Source of the DNA: Dietzia sp. ANT_WB102
GTDB taxonomy: Bacteria > Actinomycetota > Actinomycetes > Mycobacteriales > Mycobacteriaceae
Assembly: GCF_008369165.1 (NCBI RefSeq)
Contig: NZ_VOBA01000001.1
Coordinates: forward strand, 1,419,630-1,483,629
Reading direction: 5' to 3'
DNA: 64,000 nt
The position numbers were made by a program, and so were the translations under genes. The notes under the pieces were generated by a model. The model saw only the letters and a list, made by a program, of their open reading frames with translations, did no database searches and was not told the DNA's origin. Of the stretch, positions 7,294 through 13,648 are shown one piece after another. Numbering within the stretch: position 1 is the stretch's first letter; every line of letters begins with the position of its first letter.

Positions 7294-8412
7294 TCACCGC
7301 GGCCGGCGCCGCACCCCGCCGTAGATTCCCTGGCGGGTGATGAGCCGTTGGAGCACGACGTCGGACGCCCGCGCGGGGACGCGGACGCCCTGGCCGGTGG
7401 GCGCGAACACGATGAGGCCGTCACGCTGCGGACCGAGCACCGAGCCCCATCGGCGCGGTGGGGGACGGTAGTCGTGTAGCGGCGCCCCGGTGAGGTGCGC
7501 CCGGATGTTGCGTGCGAGCAGGACGTGTCCGCGGTTGCGGGCGGACGTGCGCAGCGGATCGGTGGCGGCCACATCACCCACCGCGAACACCTCGGGGTGC
7601 CCCGTCACCTGCAGCGTCGGCTCCACGGCGACGAAGCCGCGGTCGTCGAGTACCTCATCCGGAAGCCACCCGGTGTTGGGCGTGACGCGGCCGATCGCCC
7701 AGAGGACCACATCGGCACTGGTCGGGGGCTGCCCCGTGGACCAGGTGACGGGCTCGCCGGTGAGCTGGTGGGTGCCGTGGTCGGGAGGCGGCACCGCGCG
7801 GTGACCGGGGCGCAGGCCCACACCGAGGCGCACGAGGCGGGACTGGACCTGCTGCCAGACCCGGTCGTGGTGATGGGGGAGCGCACGGTCACCGGGAAAG
7901 TAGAGGTTCACCTCAGTGGTCGGCCACCGTTCGGCGATCTGCGCCGCCGCGCTCAGTGCTGCCGCGCCGCCACCGATCACCGCGACGGAGCTCGCCGCCG
8001 CGATACGCTGGTGGGGCGAGCCCAGGTCGGTATCGAGGCCTGTCGCGTCCTGGAGAGTGGGGTGGCGCCAGAATCCGTTGGTGACACCGGTGGCGACGAC
8101 GACGAGGTCGAACGGTTCCTCGATGATCGAGCCGTCCGCACGGGTGACGCGGACGAGCCGCGCCTCGGTGTCCAGGCCGGTCGCGCTGCCGTGCACGATG
8201 CGCGTTCGGTCGAGGCCGCGGAACCGGCTGTAGGCGATGCGGTAGTCCTTCTCCCACGCCTGTGGCCGGGCCAGGCGCAGGCCGAGTTCCTGGCCGCTGA
8301 CGAACTCCGGCTTGGAGGTGATGCCCACGACGTCGGCGAATTTACCGACCGTGATGGCGGTGAGGACACCCGTGTCGCCGAGGCCGACGATGACGACGCG
8401 GGGACGGCTCAT
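7294..8412 (-). CDS. FAD-dependent NAD(P)H oxidoreductase (NDH-2/AIF-like)
   Basis: This protein of 372 residues has the two-dinucleotide-fold layout of single-subunit NADH dehydrogenases and related disulfide-oxidoreductase-fold enzymes. The N-terminal fold begins RVVIVGLGDTGVLTA, where the usual GxGxxG is GLGDTG. A second nucleotide fold starts VAVIGGGAAALSAA (near residue 142). The FAD-contacting ATG and VFAVGDVAA motifs are present. No redox-active CxxC and no membrane anchor are seen, so the electron acceptor is unknown. The ATG at 8412 overlaps the stop of the DUF1295 gene (ATGA), so the two are translated together and may act on one substrate. Confidence 0.75.
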   Translation of the reverse strand: MSRPRVVIVGLGDTGVLTAITVGKFADVVGITSKPEFVSGQELGLRLARPQAWEKDYRIAYSRFRGLDRTRIVHGSATGLDTEARLVRVTRADGSIIEEPFDLVVVATGVTNGFWRHPTLQDATGLDTDLGSPHQRIAAASSVAVIGGGAAALSAAAQIAERWPTTEVNLYFPGDRALPHHHDRVWQQVQSRLVRLGVGLRPGHRAVPPPDHGTHQLTGEPVTWSTGQPPTSADVVLWAIGRVTPNTGWLPDEVLDDRGFVAVEPTLQVTGHPEVFAVGDVAATDPLRTSARNRGHVLLARNIRAHLTGAPLHDYRPPPRRWGSVLGPQRDGLIVFAPTGQGVRVPARASDVVLQRLITRQGIYGGVRRRPR

Positions 8413-9302
8413 GTGCGCGACAAGCTGGGATCGTTCTTTTTGGGCGGCCTGGGGAGGAACAGGGATACGCGCTGCACGACGTCGCGGTACTCGGGGCGGC
8501 GCTCTAGGCTGCGTTGTTCCATCAAGGGGATGCTCACGAGCAGGAACATGGCGAGCATGGCGGCGGTACCGACGAACACCCACCATGCGCCCGGCCAGGC
8601 AGCCAGGCCGAACAATCCCATCGCCAGCCAGATCCCGCATTCGCCGACGTAGTTCGGATGGCGCGACCACGACCACACACCGGACTGCATGACCTGGCCG
8701 GGCCTGCGGGTGGCGATGAAGCGGTGCATCTGCAGATCGGCGACCGTCTCCAGGGCCAGCGCGGCGACACCGACCACGAACGCGACGATGTCCAGGAGGC
8801 CGAGCGGCTCGCCGGCGCGGGTCGCCACGACGTAGACGGGGACGAGTCCGGCGAAGACCTGCAGGGTCGGGAAGACGTGGATGCCCATGAGGTCGGCGAC
8901 GATTCCGAACCGTCCGGCGCGGCCGCGAACCACCGCGTAGCGCCAGTCCTCGTGGTGCATGCCGGGGAAAGTGCGGACCCAGTTGGCGGTAAGGCGGATC
9001 GCCCACGCCAACAGCACGGCCATCATGAGCCACCAGCGGGTGTCGTTCACGCCGGCGTCGGCGGCGACCCACCAGTAGAACGCGAGCAGGGGCGGGATGA
9101 CGGACCAGTAGGCGTCATAGAAGCTCGAATTCCCGTGCATGCGGCTGGCCGCGAAGATCACCAGCGTCGCGACGAGGTCGGCGATCAGCCCGTCCAGCCA
9201 CAACTGCCCTGTATCCGGACCCCACACCAGCCACGCCAGGCCGGCGGCGATGGCGATCACGTAGGCGATGGTGATCCGCAGGAGGGACGCGCTTCTACTC
9301 AT
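8409..9302 (-). CDS. DUF1295 / steroid 5-alpha-reductase-like membrane protein
   Basis: A 297-residue polytopic membrane protein with about seven hydrophobic segments. It belongs to the DUF1295 family, related to steroid 5-alpha-reductases and isoprenylcysteine-type methyltransferases. The family core is visible: GRFGIVADLMGIHVFPTLQ, then LETVADLQMHRF, then VMQSGVWSWSRHPNYVGE with the conserved SRHPNY, and a C-terminal LMEQRSLERRPEYRDV. The start is the ATG at 9302, just ahead of the first membrane helix. An in-frame ATG at 9380 would add a hydrophilic leader. A partial copy of the first 30 codons exists near 12.5 kb. Substrate unknown. Confidence 0.8.
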   Translation of the reverse strand: MSRSASLLRITIAYVIAIAAGLAWLVWGPDTGQLWLDGLIADLVATLVIFAASRMHGNSSFYDAYWSVIPPLLAFYWWVAADAGVNDTRWWLMMAVLLAWAIRLTANWVRTFPGMHHEDWRYAVVRGRAGRFGIVADLMGIHVFPTLQVFAGLVPVYVVATRAGEPLGLLDIVAFVVGVAALALETVADLQMHRFIATRRPGQVMQSGVWSWSRHPNYVGECGIWLAMGLFGLAAWPGAWWVFVGTAAMLAMFLLVSIPLMEQRSLERRPEYRDVVQRVSLFLPRPPKKNDPSLSRT

Positions 9303-9600
9303 GGCGGGAGAATAACGCGGTGCCCGCGCCCTCGTTGACGGAACATCGAATACCGTCCGCCCCATGAGTTCGATGCTCACGGGGCGTCGTCAGCGCGAAC
9401 CTCCCCCCCGTGGCCGGTTCCGCATACCGGCGGACGTGTATACCCGTAACATTGCAAGTGGCCGTCAGGTGTCGTTGTCCTTGGCGGCGTCAACGTACCC
9501 GCGCACGCCGGATGGGCTGCGCACAGTGTGAACCACACGGCGTCTCGGCTAGCGGTCGTCAGCGGTCGGAACAGTGGCGGGTCGAGCGTAGGGTCGCGAC
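9303..9600. other. Divergent intergenic region, no gene seen
   Basis: This 298-base gap separates the DUF1295 gene (minus) from the hydrolase gene (plus). No credible open frame or hairpin was found. At its right edge TAGGGT (9589-9594) lies six bases before the hydrolase ATG and may be the -10 box of a leaderless transcript. Confidence 0.5.
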
Positions 9601-10371
9601 ATGACGCAGCTCGTCTTTCTCCCCGGACTCCACGGCGATGCGCACACGTGGAGTCCGGTGTTGCGCGCTCTGCCTGGCGAGTGGACCGCCACGGCCATGG
9701 ATCTCCCGGCCGTCTCCGACCTCGATGCCCTCGTCGACGAGTTGGCGGGGCAGGTGGCGAGTCAGGTCGCACCCAGCGGAGTCGTCGTCGGGCATTCGCT
9801 CGGGGGCGTGGTGGCCATGCACCTCGCCGAGCGGCACCCGGCCCTGATGGCCGGTCTCGTGCTGGTGACCGCACCCGTGGGTGCCGAGGATTCGGAGTCG
9901 GCCGCGGCGCGCGCTGCCCGCGCAGCAGGCTTGAGCCTCGGGGCGTACGAGGAGATCGCACTCGACGGCATGGAGGCGGTGTACTACGGCGACCGTGGCC
10001 ACGACCCACAGGTCCGGGCCGAGCGGCTGCGGGCGGCGCGTGCGTACGGACCGGAGCGGTTCGCTGCGCATTCGTTGGCCCTGGGCGCCCGCCCGGACCG
10101 CAGCCGGTTCCCCGTGCAGGCGCCCTGCCCCGTGCTGATCGTGGGGGCGTCGCACGACCAGGTGGTGCCTACCGCCGGCCAGCGACGCTGGGCTGAGGAC
10201 AACGGCGCCCGGGCCGCCAGCACTCAAACCGCCGGCATCGGGACCTCCAGTGGCGAAGCGTCCCGCGTGACCTACGTAGAGATTCCCGAGACCGGGCACA
10301 TGCTGCCGGTGGAGGCACCACAGCAGCTGGCCGGCGCGATCAGCGACTGGTGCCGCACCCTCGACATCTGA
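9601..10371 (+). CDS. Alpha/beta-fold hydrolase
   Basis: 256 residues, cytoplasmic. The alpha/beta-hydrolase elements are clear: oxyanion region FLPGLHGDAHTW near the start, nucleophile elbow VVGHSLGGVVA (Ser near residue 66), an acidic residue in VGASHDQVVP (Asp), and the catalytic His in IPETGHMLPVEAP near the end. It resembles small esterases and MhpC/BioH-type hydrolases; the substrate cannot be told. The region around 200-215 has a short insertion rich in Ala, Thr and Ser. The ATG is preceded by TAGGGT at six bases and by no ribosome-binding site, which suggests a leaderless message. Confidence 0.8.
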   Translation: MTQLVFLPGLHGDAHTWSPVLRALPGEWTATAMDLPAVSDLDALVDELAGQVASQVAPSGVVVGHSLGGVVAMHLAERHPALMAGLVLVTAPVGAEDSESAAARAARAAGLSLGAYEEIALDGMEAVYYGDRGHDPQVRAERLRAARAYGPERFAAHSLALGARPDRSRFPVQAPCPVLIVGASHDQVVPTAGQRRWAEDNGARAASTQTAGIGTSSGEASRVTYVEIPETGHMLPVEAPQQLAGAISDWCRTLDI

Positions 10372-10469
10372 TCTGGCGCGTGCTCGGCGACGACTTCGGG
10401 TCGAGCATGGGCGGTCGAGGGCCACCTCACTCGGATTGACACCATGATCGGCCCTCGGGTGCGACGCTG

Positions 10470-11183
10470 GTGCTGCGGCGGATTCGAGGTGTGCGCGTGC
10501 ATCAGTCACAGGGTGATCGAGAGCCCCAGGGTGATCGGACGACCTTCTGCGAGGCGCCGGCGGCCTACATCGTGGAGACGTACTTCGTTCTCCGGATGGT
10601 GATCGCGGGCGGCGCGGTCGCCCTGCCGCCTGCGCTACTGGTCTGGGCGGTGGTCGACAGACGCGTGGACGCTGTGAACTCGATCAGCGCCTTCTACTAC
10701 ACGCCGGCGCGCGGCCTGTTCGTGGGAACGCTGGTGGCGATCGGCGTCGCGCTCGTGGCGTACCGCGGCTACACGCGCGGCGAGAACCGGCTACTCAACG
10801 CTGCCGGCATGCTTGCGATGGTGGTCGCCCTGTTCCCGACCGAGGACCCGGCCCTGCCCGGACTGAACGCCGTGAGCGTGATCCACGCGGTGGCGGCGGT
10901 GTCGTTTTTCGTCCTCGCCGCGCTGTCAATCCTGTTCTACGGGCAGCAGACGATCAGCTCCATTCCCAACAGGGATCTCCAGAGAAGCTACCTGCTGGGC
11001 TATCGGATCCTGGTCGTACTGCTCTTGCTCCTCCCGGCCCTCGCGCTGCTCATCGCGTGGGTGATGGACTCCACCATGTGGCTGTTCCTGGTGGAAACTG
11101 CGGCGCTCTACGCGTTCGCGACGTTCTGGATCGTAAAGACGTACGAGCTGAAGTACTCGCATGTCGTGACGAGGGTGGTGTGA
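10470..11183 (+). CDS. Seven-helix membrane protein of unknown function (DUF998-like)
   Basis: Up to 237 residues with about six or seven hydrophobic segments. Recognisable patches are NSISAFYYTPARGLFVGTL followed by YRGYTRGENRLLNAAG and MVVALFPTEDP, a pattern seen in uncharacterised actinobacterial membrane proteins similar to DUF998. The GTG at 10470 is the first start. The GTG codons at 10491 or 10497 are equally possible, because the first 20 residues are hydrophilic and unlike a membrane-protein start. It stands alone between a hydrolase and a LysE-type exporter. Function unknown. Confidence 0.65.
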   Translation: MLRRIRGVRVHQSQGDREPQGDRTTFCEAPAAYIVETYFVLRMVIAGGAVALPPALLVWAVVDRRVDAVNSISAFYYTPARGLFVGTLVAIGVALVAYRGYTRGENRLLNAAGMLAMVVALFPTEDPALPGLNAVSVIHAVAAVSFFVLAALSILFYGQQTISSIPNRDLQRSYLLGYRILVVLLLLLPALALLIAWVMDSTMWLFLVETAALYAFATFWIVKTYELKYSHVVTRVV

Positions 11184-11213
11184 GGGTGCGGCCGTGATCC
11201 GGCGGAAGGACCG

Positions 11214-11879
11214 CTACGGGGTAGTGGCGCGGCTGGATCCCAGCGCGTCGGTCAGCAGGGTGGCACCGAATCCGATCAGGACCAGCCCTGTTACCGAATC
11301 GATCGCTGTCAGCGTTCTGGGGTTGGTGATTGCGCGCTGAGCGTGGGAGCCGCCGAAGATCACCACCCCGAACCACAGCAGGGTCAGTACCCCGTGCACC
11401 GCGGCCAGAGCTGCGCCCATGAGGAGTGGCGAGGTTCCAGGGGGCAGGAACTGCGGGATGGTGGCGATGTAGAAGACCCCGACTTTGGGGTTGAGCAGGT
11501 TGGTTCCGACTCCGATCGCATACCCCCGCCACAGTGGGGATGTCGCCTGAGTCGCGTCCGGCTCGATGCCGCCCGGCGCCCCGCCGCCCCTCGTGGCCTT
11601 CCAGATCAGCGAGGCCCCGAGCCACAACATGTATGCGGCGCCCGCGGTGGTCAGTAGCCGGTACGCCAGCTCCGACGCAGTCAGCAGGGCAGAGATTCCC
11701 GCAGCTGCGGCGATGCCCCAGATCATCGCTCCGGTAGCGATCCCGAACGCGGTGGCCCACGCGTACGAGCGAGAACGCGCGACCGAGGCGCGCAGAACCA
11801 AGGAGGTGTCCAGGCCTGGCACCAGGGTCAGGAGACCGGCCACCAACGCGAAGGCCAGCAGCGCCTCGAGAACAGTCAC
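11214..11879 (-). CDS. LysE/RhtB-family exporter
   Basis: 221 residues with six predicted membrane helices, typical for amino-acid exporters of the LysE/RhtB family. The family N-terminal signature is VAGLLTLVPGLDTSLVLRAS, where the Pro-Gly pair ends helix 1. The GVGTNLLNPKVGVFYIA motif in the middle is also diagnostic. The GTG start at 11879 overlaps the stop of the upstream reductase gene (GTGA), so the two are coupled. The exported compound is unknown. Confidence 0.87.
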   Translation of the reverse strand: MTVLEALLAFALVAGLLTLVPGLDTSLVLRASVARSRSYAWATAFGIATGAMIWGIAAAAGISALLTASELAYRLLTTAGAAYMLWLGASLIWKATRGGGAPGGIEPDATQATSPLWRGYAIGVGTNLLNPKVGVFYIATIPQFLPPGTSPLLMGAALAAVHGVLTLLWFGVVIFGGSHAQRAITNPRTLTAIDSVTGLVLIGFGATLLTDALGSSRATTP

Positions 11880-12499
11880 CCGGTCAGGGTAGGACGATCC
11901 GGGGGCTCACTGTCCTTCGTGTAGACCGCCGCAATGGTGCCCTTGCTGGTCGTGTTGATGCTCTTCAGCCGGAACGACCGGGGCTCGGGTACGCCGCCGA
12001 ACAGGCGTTTGCCGTCACCGAGCAGGAGGGGATGGATGAACAACCGCAGTTCATCAATGCGGTCGACTGCCAGCAACTGACGCACTACGTCGCCGCTTCC
12101 GAGGATCACCACGTCTCCCTCGCCCTCGGCGCGCAGTTGCTGCACCCCGGCGGTCAACTCTCCGCGAAGTCGGACTGCCCCTGCCCATTCCAGCGGGGGA
12201 GTGGATCGTGTGGCGACGTATTTGGGTGCAGAGTTCAGGCTGGCAGCCATCGGGTTGTCGTCCGGCTGTGTCGGCCAGAACGCGGCCATTTTCTCGTAGG
12301 TGCGCCGCCCGAACAGGTACGCCGAGGTGCCGGCCAGCCCGTTCGGATCGATGACCTCGTGCATCACGTCCCCGTACGGAACCCCCCAGCCGCCATGGTC
12401 GAAACCACCGGAACGATCTTCGGTGGGGGAGCCCAGTCCTTGCATCACACCATCGAGGGTGAGGAACTCGACGGCGACCAGTCTTCTCACGACACTCAC
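11876..12499 (-). CDS. RibD/dihydrofolate-reductase-fold protein
   Basis: 207 residues of the bacterial bifunctional deaminase-reductase C-terminal (RibD_C/DHFR-like) family, an NADPH-binding fold. Visible marks: EFLTLDGVMQG at the start, YLFGRRTYEKMAAFWP, KYVATRS and the nucleotide-binding GDVVILGSGDVVRQLL, then IDELRLFIHPLLLGDGKRLF. The start is taken as the GTG at 12499, whose first bases overlap the stop codon of a 35-codon relic of a DUF1295 gene. A GTG at 12490 is an alternative. Stand-alone members of this family are common in actinobacteria and mostly uncharacterised. Confidence 0.78.
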   Translation of the reverse strand: MSVVRRLVAVEFLTLDGVMQGLGSPTEDRSGGFDHGGWGVPYGDVMHEVIDPNGLAGTSAYLFGRRTYEKMAAFWPTQPDDNPMAASLNSAPKYVATRSTPPLEWAGAVRLRGELTAGVQQLRAEGEGDVVILGSGDVVRQLLAVDRIDELRLFIHPLLLGDGKRLFGGVPEPRSFRLKSINTTSKGTIAAVYTKDSEPPDRPTLTG

Positions 12500-12603
12500 T
12501 CGCCCTGTCCGGTGTTCAGTCCCCACACCAGCCACGCCAGGCCAGCGGCGATGGCGATCACGTAGCCGATGGTGACCCGCAGGAGGGACGCGCCTCGTCC
12601 CAT
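12496..12603 (-). pseudogene. 35-codon 5' relic of a DUF1295 gene
   Basis: An open frame of 35 codons begins MGRGASLLRVTIGY and continues to WLVWGLNTGQGE before a stop. It matches the first 31 or so codons of the intact DUF1295 gene at 8409-9302 (MSRSASLLRITIAY ... WLVWGPDTGQ) in both protein and DNA, with roughly nine in ten bases shared by eye over about 80 bases. The rest of the gene is gone. The relic stop overlaps the start of the reductase gene (GTGA). It may therefore act as a leader that delivers ribosomes to that gene. Confidence 0.8.
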
Positions 12604-12681
12604 GGCAGGAGGGTAGTGCGGCGATGCGTGGTCGACTGAGCGAACAGTGAATTCGGGTGGTCGGCGAAAACTGACCGATTG

Positions 12682-12754
12682 AGCGGATGACGGGATTCGA
12701 ACCCGCGACCCTCACCTTGGCAAGGTGATGCGCTACCAGCTGCGCCACATCCGC
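12682..12754 (-). tRNA. tRNA-Gly (anticodon GCC)
   Basis: On the minus strand a full cloverleaf folds: acceptor GCGGATG paired with CATCCGC, D arm GCGC-AGCTGGTA-GCGC, anticodon stem TCACC/GGTGA around the loop TTGCCAA (anticodon GCC), and T arm GCGGG-TTCGAAT-CCCGT. No CCA is encoded. The gene is flanked by a gene relic on each side, a typical footprint of past insertion and deletion near a tRNA. Confidence 0.96.
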
Positions 12755-12801
12755 ATCGCTCCGCAAGCGTGCTCTCGCTCGCTGCGCTGCGGATAAGAAC
12801 T

Positions 12802-13140
12802 TTAGCCCATGCCACCGCTGCAGGTGCGGGGAGGTGCCCCGAACAGCGTGTTGCCGGTCAGGTATCGGCTCGCCTCGGAGGCGAGGAACGTGGCCACCGG
12901 ACCGATGTCCTCGAACGGGTCGCCGACCCGGCCTTTGGCCGCGTTGTACGGCACCGAATACATGTGGGCGTTGACGCCATTGAGCGAGCAGAGGTTGATC
13001 ACGCGTCCCGTGCCCCGCTTCTCGAACTCCGGCAGGGCCGCCTGCATCGCCCAGAACGCGGCCACCACCACCGAGGCACCTTCTCGGGCCAACGCCCCGG
13101 CGATCCCACGACCGGCGTGAGAGCGCATCCCTAGTCCGGC
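12802..13140 (-). pseudogene. Short-chain dehydrogenase relic with internal deletions
   Basis: The frame reads as three pieces of one SDR joined without frameshift. The first is an N-terminal cofactor-binding piece (AGRGIAGALAREGASVVV). The second is the catalytic piece (ALPEFEKRGTGRVINLCS followed by YSVPYNAAKG, with the Tyr-xxx-Lys pair). The third is the C-terminal piece (RVGDPFEDIGPVATFLASEA followed by SRYLTGNTLF). The central NAG region and the stretch after the catalytic Lys, normally 60-90 residues each, are missing. About 115 residues remain of a usual 250, so the product cannot fold as an SDR. The open frame runs on to 13263, beyond the homology. An ECF42-type promoter of the next gene lies immediately beyond. 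Confidence 0.75.
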
Positions 13141-13164
13141 GCCCGACCACCCGCCCACGTCTGA

Positions 13165-13191
13165 TGTCGAGAACCCGGGACCGGTTACGTC
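13165..13191 (+). promoter_or_regulatory. Candidate ECF42 sigma-factor promoter
   Basis: TGTCGA (13165-13170), a 17-base spacer and CGTC (13188-13191) stand about 50 bases before the DGPF gene. As recalled from work on ECF42 sigma factors in Streptomyces, their targets carry TGTCGA at -35 and CGA/TC at -10, usually ahead of DGPF-protein genes. The match and its place in front of a DGPF-sigma gene pair suggest autoregulation. Confidence 0.6.
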
Positions 13192-13240
13192 CCCCCAGTG
13201 AAGCGACCACACTGGGTCGCACAGCACGAGGAGGACCGTC

Positions 13241-13648
13241 ATGGCCAAGTACCTACTGCTCAAGCACTACCGGGGCGCGCCCGAACCGCCCGATTGGGTG
13301 CCGATGAGCGAGTGGACGCCGCAGGAAGTGTCCGCCCACATCCAGTACATGAACGACTTCGCCTCCCGGCTCGAGGGGACCGGCGAGTTCGTGGAGGGCC
13401 ACGCACTGTCGGAGTCCGGCACGTGGGTGCGCTACGACGGCGAGGGAAAACCCCCGCTGACCGACGGGCCGTTCGCCGAGACCAAGGACCTTATCGCCGG
13501 CTGGATGGTCATCGAGGCCGCCACCTACGAGCGGGCACTCGAACTGGCGGCGGAGCTGTCCGCAGCCCCCGGCGCAGGCGGAGAACCCATCCGCGAATGG
13601 CTCGAGGTGCGGCCGTTCCTCGAGGCACCCGACGGGTTCGATCACTGA
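13241..13648 (+). CDS. YCII-related (DGPF) protein
   Basis: 135 residues, small, soluble, of the YCII-related family. It has the DGPF signature TDGPFAETKD near residue 79, the preceding SGTWVRYDGEGKPPL, and the family ending EVRPF. The strong GAGGAGG ribosome site ends eight bases before the ATG. DGPF proteins are usually encoded beside ECF42-type sigma factors and are their main targets; here the sigma gene follows after 37 bases. Their biochemical activity is not settled. Confidence 0.88.
   Translation: MAKYLLLKHYRGAPEPPDWVPMSEWTPQEVSAHIQYMNDFASRLEGTGEFVEGHALSESGTWVRYDGEGKPPLTDGPFAETKDLIAGWMVIEAATYERALELAAELSAAPGAGGEPIREWLEVRPFLEAPDGFDH

Follow-up and report, generated by a model that had tools for sequence, protein, structure and literature searches.

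How the start of one gene comes to stand directly before another is the question raised by this locus. In the window (the whole 64,000-nucleotide stretch of Dietzia sp. ANT_WB102 analysed here), a short frame resembling the start of a DUF1295 gene precedes a reductase gene, and the intact DUF1295 gene lies about 3.15–3.3 kb away, with the genes for the reductase, a LysE transporter, DUF7103 and a hydrolase in between (Table 1). We ask where this relic came from and whether it could serve the reductase gene as a leader.

Table 1. Positions of the features discussed, numbered within the window
Feature	Position	Strand	Basis
Relic cistron: DUF1295 codons 1–33, two new codons (GE), stop TGA	12496–12603	−	translation, BLASTN
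Relic copy of 117-nt direct repeat, 85% identical to 9204–9320	12505–12621	−	repeat finder
TACCCT, −10-like element ending 7 nt before relic ATG (leaderless spacing)	12610–12615	−	start comparison
TATTCT, −10-like element of intact DUF1295 copy	9309–9314	−	start comparison
GTGA, relic stop overlapping GTG12499	12496–12499	−	sequence
Intact DUF1295 gene	8409–9302	−	Pfam PF06966
Pyridine nucleotide-disulphide oxidoreductase, ATGA overlap with DUF1295 stop	7294–8412	−	Pfam, sequence
RibD_C-domain reductase, native start by homology GTG12490	11876–12490	−	Pfam PF01872, start comparison
LysE-type transporter joined to the reductase stop by GTGA; start GTG preceded at 6 nt by TACCCT	11214–11879	−	Pfam, sequence
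tRNA-Gly(GCC), in G019 upstream neighbour of full DUF1295 gene	12681–12754	−	congener comparison
Approximate inserted segment between both copies	9351–12504		congener alignments, repeat; boundaries inferred

A gene start present twice

The relic is a 35-codon frame with the translation MGRGASLLRVTIGYVIAIAAGLAWLVWGLNTGQGE-stop. The preliminary description had taken it for a near copy of the DUF1295 start that is then cut off, and the comparison bears this out: the alignment of both start regions with BLASTN gave 93 identical nt of 107 (E = 7e-35), and the copy runs over 33 codons. When further copies were sought across the assembly with protein and DNA, only the relic and the intact gene matched. 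A Pfam search with the relic found no match, and thus no DUF1295 domain (PF06966), since this domain of the intact protein begins only at residue 50. Judged by its sequence, the relic is a leftover 5′ end of a DUF1295 gene and not a member of the DUF1295 family.

The overlaps described earlier at the ends of the relic (GTGA, 12499–12496) and of the intact gene (ATGA, 8412–8409) are both present, and with the GTGA between reductase and LysE they make up RTGA links at three junctions. RTGA was also seen in congeners where the DUF1295 stop meets the oxidoreductase, in all six loci printed (L064–L068 and L072). The reductase itself scores 60.6 bits against RibD_C (PF01872; cutoff 24.1) and belongs to that domain family. 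Between tRNA-Gly and a YCII gene, a broken short-chain dehydrogenase was noticed (12805–13263, minus strand); here Pfam places adh_short 109–154 and adh_short_C2 202–229 in consecutive residues, so that the middle part of the dehydrogenase is missing.

The ancestral site in congeners

Close DUF1295 genes (E below 1e-130) were found in 12 of 22 congeners. In G019, a full DUF1295 gene follows tRNA-Gly after about 125 bp, and a single alignment spans the tRNA gene, the intergenic stretch and the full-gene start when compared with the relic side of the window. Because the full gene of G019 sits there, directly behind tRNA-Gly, the relic marks the old DUF1295 site, and the search for a full gene at this place in related species, proposed earlier, thus had a positive outcome. 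In G015, DUF1295 adjoins the YCII gene, which in the window lies beyond tRNA-Gly. In G016, tRNA-Gly adjoins a truncated DUF1295 gene with codons 1–54 missing and one stop codon; its start (L075, 10900–11020) is rearranged and, by eye, includes a short stretch of the gene in inverted orientation. In G017, tRNA-Gly and DUF1295 are 5 kb apart; they were probably once adjacent, since a 15-mer about 128 nt before the DUF1295 start is the one found in G019 8 nt after tRNA-Gly. A tRNA gene was sought in the 12 fetched DUF1295 regions and eight had none, so that support for the adjacency is confined to near relatives and does not extend across the genus.

Upstream of about −49/−50, ancestral DNA is found only on the relic side, and non-ancestral DNA precedes the intact gene. 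In G014 too, DUF7103 is situated between tRNA-Gly and DUF1295, and G002 and G003 have DUF7103 with the hydrolase upstream of DUF1295; the inserted stretch may therefore have been built in several steps and not in one event. Two full close DUF1295 copies in one genome were found in none of the 81 genomes searched.

Some match to the reductase exists in 71 of 81 genomes. Close relatives were found only in G017 (74%, at another place) and G050 (67%) among 80 relatives, which identifies the reductase as an accessory gene, and its best named relatives come from Tessaracoccus (79%) and Brevibacterium (74%). The reductase–LysE pair, sought in 46 loci, was present only in its own genome. A plasmid source was considered and rejected: 244 plasmid records match the reductase, none of them at 60% identity or more. 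As a separate observation, G019 (L065, 6406–6960) and G017 (L064, 4945–5511) each carry a distant RibD_C relative (about 32%) close to tRNA-Gly.

Promoter element and reductase start

At all 13 DUF1295 starts compared (11 congeners, the relic and the intact copy), TAnnnT ends 7 or 8 nt before the ATG, the number of independent cases being below 13 because G002/G003 and G021/G022 are identical over the compared start. As a control, TAnnnT occurs at −6 to −9 before only 19 of the 3,946 ATG/GTG triplets of the window. Most DUF1295 copies also have a GTT element near −41 in common. Within the window, frames of at least 200 aa open at 9 of the 14 TAnnnT-N6/7-RTG sites (relic and intact starts included) versus 679 of 3,928 other RTGs (Fisher P = 1.2e-4), and the spacing control peaks at gaps of 6 and 7, with small counts. 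Since this spacing marks long frames in the window, the relic is probably a leaderless cistron. No Shine-Dalgarno pairing precedes its ATG. A scan of 9250–12900 for consensus sigma-70 promoters found none, and only the −10 element is argued for; nor was a terminator-like site found on the minus strand, that of tRNA-Gly, in the same interval. It is likely that the relic donates a promoter to the reductase gene. Note that TACCCT also occurs within the reductase end (11879–11891), and LysE may also have a leaderless promoter of its own.

GTG12499 is in frame with the reductase, and a start there adds three residues compared with GTG12490. Of 20 reductase relatives (two from the genome set and 18 of 80 loci), 19 have an ATG or GTG start that aligns with GTG12490, three codons inside GTG12499; in the 20th, L093, the match begins at residue 3 and the start is not evaluable. 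GTG12499 is therefore probably a new, accessory or unused start. The preliminary description had let the relic end exactly where the reductase begins and had seen in it a possible leader cistron. The overlap and the layout of such a leader (frame, GTGA) stand, and the conserved −10-like element at leaderless spacing, which that description had not mentioned, comes in addition; GTG12499, however, may not be the native start, and the GTGA overlap is probably not where the reductase ancestrally began. A relative with the same start context and no relic would speak against the leader; in the part of this comparison that was run, relatives devoid of the relic have a different context, and the proposal was not refuted.

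Before GTG12490, the Shine-Dalgarno duplex reaches −7.6 kcal/mol, an ordinary value attained by 12% of random 19-mers, and owing to this potential GTG12490 may initiate alone. Contiguous pairing to the anti-SD extends over at most 4 nt in the window; of 19 relatives, 13 reach 5–7 nt and the other 6 also 4 nt. Relic stop and reductase start overlap by 4 nt with GTG12499 and are 5 nt apart with GTG12490. Coupling depends strongly on short distance and is nearly abolished at about 20 nt, according to the consulted part of PMC10666635, which places both GTG codons in coupling range; translational coupling from the relic to the reductase is plausible. A further idea, that RNA structure holds the reductase start, was tested and dismissed: the RNA around the junction is no more stable than shuffled versions of it (z −0.37).

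Divergence of the two copies

With G017 or G019 as outgroup, private changes number 10 vs 3 and 9 vs 4 (relic vs intact copy); with G003, G015 and G014 they are 5/6, 4/5 and 5/5. The two copies differ with dN 0.097 and dS 0.282, a dS similar to that of close congeners (0.21–0.38). This divergence is compatible with relaxed constraint on the relic, at low power. Relative to G017/G019, the changes of the relic fall mostly at amino-acid-altering sites, and its peptide therefore looks unselected; chance alone would be expected to leave the frame open through nine changes (P about 0.78). On these grounds a selected micropeptide was set aside, 33 codons giving little power. The tree groups relic and intact copy with weak support (50), so that the two may have originated in different species; codon 15 has a third base found in these two only, which favours common descent within this lineage.

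Origin of the arrangement

Altogether, we regard an insertion with partial duplication of the DUF1295 5′ end, leaving a leaderless relic cistron coupled to the reductase, as the best explanation, and we believe it somewhat more than we doubt it. The original site would have held tRNA-Gly, a leaderless promoter, DUF1295 and the oxidoreductase. A segment with the reductase and LysE would have inserted at the DUF1295 5′ end, DUF7103 and the hydrolase coming with it or arriving later. Integration of the segment would have duplicated roughly −49 to +99 of DUF1295, as one-ended homologous or single-crossover integration would do. The intact gene would thereby end up downstream with one promoter copy, the other copy and 33 codons staying behind tRNA-Gly. 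Transcription would then start at the relic ATG; having translated the 35 codons and terminated at TGA, ribosomes would begin again at GTG12499 or GTG12490, and later at the GTGA-linked LysE. Direct repeats do flank the new DNA, one of them truncated, as in an integration product, an arrangement with which other histories are also compatible.

The preliminary description had invoked a deletion that kept the start of the lost gene. This is not upheld, given the distance of the intact gene and the non-ancestral DNA upstream of about −49; an insertion with 5′ duplication fits better than a simple deletion and is preferred, as the survival of the intact copy behind non-ancestral DNA means that such an insertion explains both copies in one step. 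The deletion could be rescued by a tandem duplication of the whole DUF1295 gene, followed by loss of the body of the first copy and entry of other genes: it yields the same end product, and the dS within the range of close congeners leaves enough time. However, more steps are required, no genome of the 81 searched shows two full close copies, and ancestral DNA lies upstream on the relic side only, which makes this history improbable. Pure decay, in which the relic is a role-less random scrap with a chance junction and the reductase is expressed by read-through from tRNA-Gly or an internal promoter, could point to nearby scraps such as the broken dehydrogenase, to the rearranged DUF1295 start of G016, and to the same-strand tRNA gene with no terminator-like site behind it; the −10 element kept intact at leaderless spacing speaks against it, and we give it very little credence.

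A less far-reaching alternative is that the relic provides a promoter only, the reductase starting alone at GTG12490 and the 35-codon frame being an inert by-product. The start position of the relatives, the duplex before GTG12490 and the unselected look of the peptide suit it, whereas the anti-SD match, shorter here than in most relatives, and the GTGA overlap with an in-frame GTG12499 suit reinitiation; on balance we consider promoter donation alone unlikely, if a serious contender.

Relation to known systems and meaning

In mycobacteria, the parts of PMC4633059 and PMC9094748 consulted describe hundreds of leaderless small ORFs, most with no sign of selection on the peptide; those whose TGA overlaps the RTG of the next gene are overrepresented, and the RTGA linkage is sometimes kept while the peptide is not (PMC4633059). 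The relic resembles these ORFs in a −10-like element spaced as for a leaderless ATG, in a TGA that overlaps an RTG (though the reductase relatives start three codons further in), and in an apparently unimportant peptide. What sets it apart is that a piece of a nearby gene can be recognised in it. Its 4-nt overlap, or the 5-nt gap, is likewise akin to termination–reinitiation at 4-nt overlaps as covered in the consulted parts of PMC10666635 and the review PMC12548453. Homology-facilitated illegitimate or single-crossover integration, as far as PMC3240628 was consulted, predicts new DNA between a full and a truncated shared copy, as found here. In the portions of the literature consulted on leaderless leaders, pseudogenes and promoter capture with coupling, no same case was recognised, which does not prove its absence. 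The layout is thus already known in related bacteria, and this case is instructive because the origin of the putative leader cistron is visible.

If our proposal is true, an insertion just inside the 5′ end of a leaderless gene would acquire both promoter and translation start in a single step. The locus suggests one way in which leaderless small ORFs can arise: an insertion leaves the start of a host gene behind. That gene-start relics generally supply acquired genes with leader cistrons in leaderless-rich actinobacteria is a tentative and rather doubtful extension; if it were general, it would help to explain why the linkage can matter but the peptide does not, and how newcomer genes get expressed.
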